Positions 35,115 through 38,201 of a stretch of 64,000 nt of DNA are shown here, one piece after another; position 1 is the stretch's first letter; the number at the start of each line of letters is the position of its first letter. A program made the translations under genes and the position numbers. The notes under the pieces are model-generated. The model saw only the letters and a program-made list of their open reading frames with translations. It had not been told where the DNA came from and did no database searches. Origin of the DNA: an uncultured Latescibacterota bacterium (GTDB taxonomy: Bacteria > Latescibacterota > UBA2968); the NCBI GenBank assembly GCA_951812755.1, contig OX638329.1, positions 2,775,339-2,839,338 on the forward strand, written 5' to 3'.

Positions 35115-38100
35115 ATGAGTCTTTCAGTGAAGGCGACGTGGCATAAAATTTCGTGGGATGCGTTTGTTCAAAAGGGGTTGCCCGAATTGTTGGCAGATCG
35201 TGTGTCGCTGGCGGGTTATCGGGTGGTGTCGGTGGATGAATATACCTGTGAATTGCATCTCGCGGTTCAGGGCGGTCAAGAGGTTGTGTACAAAGATATC
35301 CCCCAGCCCGACGATTGGGGGCGGTTTAAGGTGGATGGCTTTTTTCGAACAGTAGTTCCCGCGCCGACTGATGTGGATTTGGCGCGTGCTGAAATTCGGT
35401 GTGTGGGCGAGCAAGTGCGCGATTATATTGCCGAGCGGTTGAAAAATATGCCCGAGATGTTGGAAGAAGCAGTTGAAACTTGGATGCCGTTGGGAGATTG
35501 GATTCACACATTTTTTACGGAAGAACCCACATCGCACTATTTGCAGGCGACCAATTTGCAGGATATGTACGTTCATTTGCGGCGGGTGACGTTGATCCCA
35601 ATTATCGGTGAGGCCGATGAGGGGGTAGAAAATTACTATCATCCGTCGCACGATGGGTGCGTGTGTCCTTATTCCACGCCTGAAGGACCGAATCTCGCGC
35701 GGATTTTAGAGGTGGCTCAGGGAGCGACTATTCGCGATGGCAAGCTGGTGATTGAAGACGATGCGCCTGAAAAGCGGCTGGGCATAGGTGCTTCGGTGGT
35801 TCCGTTTTTGGAACACAATGATACCAATCGCGTTTTGATGGGTGTGAATATGATGCGGCAGTGGATAGGCGCGCCGGGTCCCGATATGCATCGTGATGAA
35901 CAAGGTGTGTGGCACACATATCACGCGCAATATGACGGCAAGGTACTGGAGTCGGAACCCGCGCTGGTGCAAACGGGATGTGAACCGAGTGATCCGCATT
36001 TTTGGACGGGGTACAATTTGCTGACCGCGTTTATGGCGTGGAATGGGGATGCCCACGAAGATGCAGTTGTGATGAGCGAATCGGCTGCGAATCGGATGAT
36101 GTTGCCCAATCGCGTTGCGCTGGGCGATAAACTGAGCAATCGACACGGTTTTAAGGGTGTGGTGTCGCGCATTGTGAAAGATGAAGAGATGCCCAAATTG
36201 TCGGATGGCACGCCTGTGGAGCTTATTGTGAGTGTGTGTGGTTTGCCGTCGCGGTTGAATATTGGACAGGTGCGCGAAGCGGTGGCCGGGCGCATTGCAA
36301 AGGCCGAGGGAGAGCCGGTTATTATTCCCGTACTCAATGCGCCCAAAGACGATGAGATACGCACTCGTTTGAGTGCTTTAGGGCTGGCAGAAGATGGCAT
36401 GGATACCCTGACGTTAAATGGGGAAACGCTGCCGCGTCGCACCACTGTGGGGTGGGTGTATTGGGGGCGCACGTTGCATCTGGCTGCAGATAAAATTCAC
36501 ATGGGTGTAAAGCCGGGTCAACGCGACCAAGGGGTGGGTGAGACAGAGTTTTTGGCGTTGCGAGAAGTGGGTGCTTTTGGTGTGATTGGCGATTTGTTCA
36601 ATACGTGCGCGGTGGATCGAGATGATGCCAATACTCTGGCAGACCGCGTCATTGAAGGACCTGTTAGTCCCACTGCGCCGTCTCCTCAGTTTGATGATCT
36701 GGTCGGGCATTTGTCAAAAGGTGGGGTTGCCGTTGAACAGGATGAACATGGTGCAGCGTTTTTGTTGAAACGCGGTGGGGATGTCGCGCTTGCGCGTCCG
36801 GTTCCGCATCCGTGGCTACCGGGACATTCGTTGACACATGTGAGCGGGAGAGATGTGCCCCGCGCATTGCGAGAGGCCAACGACCGGTTGAGTGAGATGA
36901 TTGCCAATGGCGCGCCAGATATATTGGTGGATCGCGCGATTGAAACGCTGTCTGAACGGGTTCGCGCATTTTGCGAGTTGTCGCGTTTGCAATTTCAGGC
37001 GCGTGCGTTGTTCAGTGGGCGTTCGGTGGCTGCGCCTGCGCCCGAATTGAGATACGATCAGGTCGGTGTGCCCGAGGAAATGGCGTGGACGTTGTTTGGG
37101 CCATTTGCAGCGCGAGAGGTGGGGGCTGAAGAAGTGGATAGGCGGTCGAGAAAAGCAGAGGAAGCTCTGGATGCGGCTATGGCCGGGTTATGGACTGTGG
37201 TGCTTCGCAATCCCGCGTTTTCGCCAATGGCTTTTGTGGCGTGTCGTCCGGTGCGCGTGGAAGGTGAGGCGATTCGCGTGTGTGTGGCGATTTGCAAGAT
37301 GATGAATTTGGATTTTGATGGCGATCAGGTGGCGATTTTTGTGCCGGTGACTGAAGAAGGCCAGTGGTCGGCTGAAGCGCATCTGTCGGCAGTGGCGCAT
37401 CTGAATCGGGATCCGGGGCTGATTGCACGGGAGAAGGTACACCCGATGCACGATGCACTGTTTGGCCTGGCGTATCTGAGTATGACGGACGAGGGGTTGC
37501 AGGAGATTGCGTCGATTGTCGGCGATGAGGTTGAGCGAAAGGGGTTGTTTGTCGATAAGCATCAGGTGATGGGCTGGATGGCGGATGCGATGGCGCGCGA
37601 TGGTGCGAAGGCTGCACTGGATCTGGCCGCGCGATTGTGGGATAGAGGGTTTGATGCCGCGCGTAAGACAGGGGCTTCGATGAGTGCGTTTATCGGTTCG
37701 TCTCTCGATTGGCCCGATCCGCCAGAAGGGGATGATCCAGATGTCTGGCGCGATTATCCCGATGAGGTGTCGGCTGTGTTGGCGCGGTTTAGCGGATATG
37801 ATGATGATGAACTCGGGATTCCCGCGCTTTTGGTGGAATGCGGTGCGCGTGCCAATTGGCAGCAGGTCAGGCTTTACGTAGCTCCCCAGGGCGTGACGCG
37901 GAATGATCAGGGTGGGTTTACGCCCCTGAAGCACGGTTTTCGAGAAGGGCTGACGCCAGAGGAGCTTTTTGCGCGGGCGATTGGTGCGCGCTGGGGACTG
38001 GCAAATGCGCTGGCGGAGATGCTGGCGATTCAGAGCGATCTGGAAACGCAGAGTGCGCCCGGTGGGTATGGTGTTTTGGCGCGGGCGCGCAGGTCGGAAA

Positions 38101-38201
38101 CGCCGGGTGTGGTATTTGCCCGCGCAGCGCAAAAGGGCGAGCGCGATCCGCTGACTGATGAGTATAGCCGGTTATTTGTGGGGATGGAGGTTGAAGTGTG
38201 A
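35115..38201 (+). CDS. Single-chain RNA polymerase-like protein (fused minimal beta and beta-prime)
   Basis: 1028 residues. The beta-like half has [13 protein letters not shown] (69-), [18 protein letters not shown] (176-193), [18 protein letters not shown] (229-246), [19 protein letters not shown] (301-319, with the Glu-Asp pair) and [16 protein letters not shown] (337-352), which keeps both catalytic lysines (339, 347). The beta-prime-like half has a clamp-helix-like coil (about 583-620), [19 protein letters not shown] (633-651, switch 2), Arg698/Pro700 equivalents of the NRAP motif, and [12 protein letters not shown], whose Asp733, 735 and 737 would hold the catalytic magnesium. An F-loop and bridge helix follow ([26 protein letters not shown]). 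It ends 50-60 residues later, with no recognisable trigger loop. The start at 35115 has GGAG 7-8 bases upstream. It probably makes RNA with the nearby sigma factor. Confidence 0.92.

Follow-up and report, generated by a model that had tools for sequence, protein, structure and literature searches.

Why would a bacterium that already encodes a housekeeping RNA polymerase carry a second, far smaller one in the same chromosome? The question is raised by a gene in the complete 6.53 Mb chromosome of a member of the Latescibacterota, which we analyzed with its surroundings in a stretch of 64,000 nucleotides (the window). A sequence-only reading of this DNA had proposed that one 1028-residue frame holds beta motifs followed by beta' motifs and encodes an active accessory polymerase, probably distinct from the housekeeping enzyme. 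ORF inspection places the chain of 1028 aa in a single open frame with its ATG at 35115, and every motif quoted in that reading is present, including the catalytic lysines K339 and K347 and the three aspartates D733/D735/D737 within NLDFDGDQ; R-N-P lies near residues 698-700. The gene and its mapped parts are:

35115..38201, + strand: single-chain flapless RNA polymerase, a beta core (~residues 1-540) fused to a beta' core (~540-1028)
36090..36107, + strand: site of the missing beta flap, residues 326-331, from HMM mapping
36129..36155, + strand: catalytic lysines K339 and K347 of the beta double-psi barrel, by motif
36861..36989, + strand: beta' clamp coiled coil, residues 583-625, by HMM alignment to Acinetobacter RpoC 265-313
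37311..37325, + strand: DFDGD catalytic triad D733/D735/D737, by motif
37956..38036, + strand: bridge helix, residues 948-974, a helix in the AlphaFold2 model

The same reading had suggested profile comparison with RpoB and RpoC, a search of the full genome for ordinary rpoB and rpoC, and a structure prediction, and all three bear out its assignment. Matches in Pfam (RNA_pol_Rpb2_6, E=1.9e-39; Rpb2_3, 2e-4; RNA_pol_Rpb1_2, 5.6e-15), NCBIfam (rpoB, 2e-48; rpoC, 2e-31; beta/beta' fusion models, 2e-48, with all scores far under the curated cut-offs) and the PDB (RpoB, 5e-43; RpoC, 3e-26) assign beta to the first half of the chain and beta' to the second. Two catalytic lysines in beta and DxDxD in beta' place the protein in the msRNAP double-psi-barrel superfamily, and it lacks the flap, trigger loop, jaw and two-chain organization of housekeeping RpoB/RpoC. 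The chromosome also encodes a separate rpoB (an open frame of 1269 aa) and rpoC (1368 aa), ~0.34 Mb from the polymerase gene and set between ribosomal-protein genes and fusA, in agreement with an accessory rather than a housekeeping role. These results support the reading of the protein as an accessory RNA polymerase, minimal and single-chain, that the bacterium has besides its housekeeping enzyme and that is predicted to be active.

To map which parts of the cellular enzyme have been kept and lost, a profile built from 37 members of the family was aligned (HMM) with the housekeeping RpoB and RpoC. Retained are the fork region with TPEGPN, both barrels, the clamp coiled coil, R-x-P, DFDGD, the F-loop/SGARG region and the bridge helix and, more weakly, a short N-terminal beta motif and the beta' N-terminal LARPVPHPW motif. 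Absent are most of the beta lobes, ~25 residues past the clamp coiled coil (the rudder region), and the flap, where ~8 profile positions stand against 255 residues (768-1023) of the RpoB of this genome. In beta', a gap opens just past the bridge helix and closes near the C terminus: the mapping stops at RpoC ~790-820, the trigger loop/jaw region is missing, and the last 30 residues weakly resemble the beta' C-terminal tail (best alignment RpoC 1291-1310). The AlphaFold2 model reached a pLDDT of 77 (~90 over residues 290-970) and a pTM of 0.74 with a 63-row alignment that included 55 phage single-chain rows; with 8 sequences the pLDDT was 45. Foldseek matched this model to RpoB and RpoC chains (E ~1e-20, probability 1.0; 1036 matches at E<=1e-3). 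The clamp coiled coil appears in the model as two helices and would be the expected dock for sigma2.

The most informative feature of the locus was missed by the sequence-only reading: an obligately linked ECF sigma gene with a conserved ECF-type promoter. The region upstream of the polymerase comprises:

31060..32097, + strand: zf-DksA/TraR-domain protein, a neighbor in one order only and judged to lie outside the module
33193..33218, + strand: ECF-type promoter TGAAC-N14-CGGTGTC, ahead of the sigma-polymerase unit and probably autoregulatory
33241..33834, + strand: ECF sigma factor (sigma2 + sigma4; Pfam Sigma70_r2 4e-18, Sigma70_r4_2 6e-15)
33821..35011, + strand: 396-aa ORF, function unassigned, between sigma and polymerase in this genome, with no Pfam/NCBIfam match

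The sigma factor is of the ECF type, consisting of sigma2 and sigma4 only and preceded by a promoter with a GAAC-type -35 element. Its gene probably starts at TTG 33241, behind AGGAGG, because the start chosen by the ORF finder (GTG 33214) lies within the -10 element. Wherever the upstream DNA of a locus is available, in both of the phyla examined (Latescibacterota and an Armatimonadetes group), the ECF gene precedes the polymerase on the same strand, and in many loci the two genes overlap by ~4 nt. In the window, one other gene, the 396-aa ORF, separates them. This ORF was not found in the relatives compared and is not a conserved part of the module, since in other species of the genus that position is empty or taken by a different gene. 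An unrelated ABC transporter gene lies between ECF and polymerase in G007 (L063, 8507-10369, - strand), and the two insertions suggest a hot spot within the operon in this genus.

Other neighbors of the pair vary from clade to clade. The zf-DksA protein was rejected as a module component, as it is distributed class-wide, many genomes that lack the polymerase have it, and in G008 it is unlinked; taken as a negative control, its gene does not track the polymerase. A 310-aa neighbor was likewise rejected as part of the sigma-polymerase system. Elsewhere in the window, a TnpB-type (OrfB_IS605/Cas12f-like) gene at 29462-30580 (- strand), with no obvious TnpA, is unique to this genome at that spot among the loci compared. 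At 38345-41490, a BlaI-type repressor precedes an M56/BlaR1 peptidase that carries about five TonB C-terminal domains as a fusion, the length of the fused protein varying by species from 584 to 919 aa. A short ORF at 47347-47658 contains two identical tandem copies of a ~44-residue stretch (VMCDFKIMVKKTSNQWLAVRKTRILEPSLRQGVSRNPVVLTFLY).

Profile searches recovered the polymerase from 22 of 64 genomes of the Latescibacterota and 17 of 291 of the Armatimonadetes group, the two phyla that were examined in depth; most of these genomes are draft or MAG-derived, with the window genome, G008, G037 and G046 in single contigs. Among 60 relatives, complete or partial orthologues occur in the genus and are scattered through the class. 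Two further orthologues came from Armatimonadetes MAGs in a contig scan, and the scan of wider phyla used six 8-residue query patterns, which detect close relatives only. Proteins of the two phyla are 40-50% identical. DxDxD and the two lysines are kept in nearly all members in both phyla, as are R-x-P and the bridge helix, and both the polymerase (dN/dS 0.14-0.18) and the ECF sigma (0.10-0.15) are under purifying selection. Exceptions at the catalytic positions include DNDGD in L084, K339R in some members, and the small L055/L057 lineage (G031, G036), where Y replaces the first Asp (YFDGD, not DFDGD) and L055 has Arg at both catalytic lysines; members of this lineage may be inactive or have a changed chemistry. 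Frame-broken copies of the polymerase occur in two draft genomes (G009, G061).

The sigma factor follows the polymerase closely. In the Latescibacterota, the polymerase is present in 22 genomes and the partner ECF in 24, with both in 21; the polymerase-only genome G036 and the ECF-only genomes G010 and G022 reflect contig ends or fragments, and the third ECF-only genome (G027) is 75% complete and holds a truncated ECF. Each of the 17 Armatimonadetes-group genomes with the polymerase carries the ECF, and the 15 best-scoring ECFs of the 291 genomes all lie in polymerase genomes. The partner in the window genome scores 329 bits, versus at most 107 for 15 other ECF-like matches, and in a tree with 14 other ECFs the partners group in a single clade (SH-aLRT 99). 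Distances among ECFs and among polymerases are strongly correlated (Mantel r=0.90, 0/9999 permutations); on linked genes, this test and the trees show co-inheritance, not binding. Partner ECFs differ from other ECFs mainly by the invariant region 2.2 residues W62, A65, Q67 and W68, with W62 in 21/21 partners versus 1/14 other ECFs and W68 in 90% versus none. By our own alignment, this stretch is probably the equivalent of the core-binding M413 region of sigma70, and the partner-specific residues may hint at a different core.

Conservation extends to the promoter: in both phyla, almost all copies have GAAC-N16-GTGTC, at a fixed spacing, ahead of them. At 23 distinct loci from the two phyla, an exact or near-exact site with the same spacing lies upstream of the ECF gene, and GAAC, G22 and the last GTC are invariant over all 23. 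Since TGAAC-N14-CGGTGTC has the architecture of an ECF promoter, autoregulation is implied. The exact motif occurs once in the window, three times in G000, where the remaining sites lie within open frames, and once in G008, at its own operon. Sites with one mismatch in three genomes (6, 8 and 8) show no excess over a reversed-pattern control (8, 10 and 12), and this motif search found no regulon beyond the module's own operon. In G019, a second exact promoter (L143 1501-1526, - strand; G019:C208:11388-11413) lies 62 bp upstream of a gene for a 408-aa lipoprotein with leucine-rich-like repeats, a candidate for an additional target of the module.

We consider it probable that the ECF sigma and the flapless single-chain polymerase constitute an autoregulated two-gene accessory transcription module. 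The published ECF holoenzyme structures label the flap-tip helix and the coiled coil as sigma contacts, and in them the sigma linker threads the active-site cleft (PMC6411747). With the beta flap, the normal holder of sigma4, gone, the usual two-point binding of sigma is impossible; its loss, together with retention of the clamp coiled coil, favors a dedicated holoenzyme held at one point, between sigma2 and the clamp. The dock for region 2 of the ECF sigma would be the beta' clamp coiled coil of the polymerase, and the sigma would recognize GAAC-N16-GTGTC promoters, that of its own operon first. RNA would then be made in the usual active site of two barrels, with a bridge helix but without trigger loop, flap or lobes, alpha and omega presumably also being dispensed with. 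Once triggered, the sigma-polymerase loop may amplify itself, and further targets, if any, would be few or have looser promoters. It is the activity of the polymerase, the binding of sigma to it, the core that uses the promoter and the physiological role of the pair that we infer from the observations above. We advance more tentatively, as a serious possibility, that the two phyla own a second, fully separate sigma-dependent machine: a flapless and trigger-loop-less descendant or sister of cellular RNAP which, as a two-protein holoenzyme with its own ECF sigma, would transcribe only promoters that the main enzyme leaves unread.

Against the module reading, the flap that normally holds sigma4 has been lost, the promoter could equally serve the sigma bound to the housekeeping core, one lineage (L055/L057) has altered catalytic residues, and no regulon beyond the own operon was found. 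Each of these observations also suits one or both of two other explanations that retain the housekeeping core as the partner of the sigma. In the main rival, the single-chain protein would imitate the core as a decoy, capturing the sigma with its clamp coiled coil and so titrating it, as might be expected of a tightly coupled gene in the usual position of an anti-sigma, with the flap missing, the clamp helices kept, no separate conserved anti-sigma near the pair and, in one lineage, a changed catalytic site. To our knowledge, an anti-sigma of 1000 residues would be unique, and a decoy would not need DxDxD, both lysines, R-x-P and the bridge helix, which nearly all members conserve over two phyla; we therefore regard this explanation as unlikely. 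We judge it unlikely, too, that the polymerase is active but sigma-independent, the sigma with the housekeeping core switching on the operon and the enzyme doing another job, such as primer or non-promoter RNA synthesis. The lost flap, the lack of other promoter sites and a promoter with full -35 and -10 elements, as read by ordinary ECF holoenzymes, would fit such an enzyme; its strict pairing with one ECF clade and the partner-specific residues in the core-binding region of the sigma would not.

Two further explanations concern where the gene came from. A phage or mobile-element polymerase of the YonO or fused phage type, domesticated or resident in the chromosome, would account for the patchy distribution, and single-chain beta-beta' enzymes of ~2000-2300 aa are common in phage contigs (L180-L257; at least 482 of 600 candidate stretches confirmed). 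We nevertheless consider it very improbable. Searches by tblastn of 50,697 phage and 72,556 plasmid records returned either ordinary rpoB/rpoC or phage enzymes of divergent sequence; no match covered 80%, and none was a full-length homologue. A search of viral contigs for the family yielded only L065 and L066. In an unrooted tree of conserved columns, the family forms one clade (SH-aLRT 100) separate from the clades of nine cellular RNAPs (99) and sixteen phage single-chain enzymes (99), so the polymerase falls outside the phage group, and the Latescibacterota polymerases form one subclade beside those of the Armatimonadetes. The neighbors, moreover, differ between clades, with no phage genes among the named ones. 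An ancient phage origin of the family is nonetheless conceivable. That the gene is a decaying, functionless rpoBC duplicate would agree with its reduced size and the frame-broken copies but is contradicted by the dN/dS values and by conservation of motifs and operon in two phyla, and is hardly credible.

Other kinds of single-chain or split polymerase were encountered in the searches. A second kind occurs in the Latescibacterota (L058, 6158-9733, - strand, in G023; L060, 416-6355, - strand, in G031): the beta-beta' protein of L060 is ~2000 aa, and that of L058, cut by a contig end, contains the trigger-loop motif QLTFRTFYVG; the genes next to it are not those of a phage but cysteine-synthase and oxidoreductase genes. 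In Vibrio phage D181 (L261, 5212-8232), a 1006-aa "hypothetical protein" joins a C-terminal beta core to an N-terminal beta' core and stops soon past its D.DGD motif (DYDGD), which indicates a phage RNAP split at unusual points.

Cellular msRNAP has been described as invariably having a five-subunit core (PMC5467207). If the module reading is true, a chromosomal enzyme of 1028 residues would, with its dedicated sigma, amount to a minimal holoenzyme of natural origin and would reveal which parts (flap, trigger loop, jaw, alpha, omega) sigma-dependent initiation can spare. Docking of sigma2 on the clamp would become testable without the flap, the pair would offer an orthogonal transcription system of two genes whose promoter is known, and the speculation, voiced about YonO-like proteins, that bacteria may use a second polymerase for special gene sets would gain firmer ground. 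Searches of the open-access literature turned up no earlier account in which a single-chain polymerase has its own dedicated ECF sigma.

Among known systems, the sequence-only reading had named YonO of Bacillus phage SPbeta as a relative. The likeness stands for a single chain of ~100 kDa with both double-psi barrels, DxDxD, no flap insert and no detectable trigger loop, but kinship is loose, since the family is recognizably bacterial in its beta/beta' sequence. YonO-like proteins are single-chain enzymes found in phage and main genomes, the homology of YonO to msRNAP is limited to a few active-site residues, and its authors left unsettled whether it recognizes promoters alone or with factors (PMC5467207). 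By that published description the present family is set apart: its homology to RpoB/RpoC is extensive and readily aligned, it keeps the clamp coiled coil and bridge helix, and it is chromosomal with a dedicated ECF sigma. NCgl1702-like enzymes, grouped with YonO among phage and mobile-element enzymes in which the flap insert is absent (PMC7824862), are likewise distinguished by description from a family that is paired with a sigma and lies off recognizable mobile elements. Phage single-chain RNAPs (IMG/VR L180-L257; the fusions of crAss-like phages, PMC7481178) share beta and beta' in one chain with the same motif order but, besides their greater length and separate clade, have a flap-sized insert and the beta' C-terminal part. 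The rpoB-rpoC fusions of Wolbachia and Helicobacter (NCBIfam PRK14844/PRK09603) also run from beta to beta' in one chain; however, they are housekeeping enzymes of ~2840-2890 profile positions, against 1028 aa here beside separate rpoB and rpoC, and the polymerase scores 164 bits with these models, whose cut-offs exceed 4600. In its layout the locus most resembles an ECF sigma/anti-sigma operon, with a conserved GAAC...GTC promoter, an ECF gene and a coupled second gene, except that the second gene here encodes an RNA polymerase.
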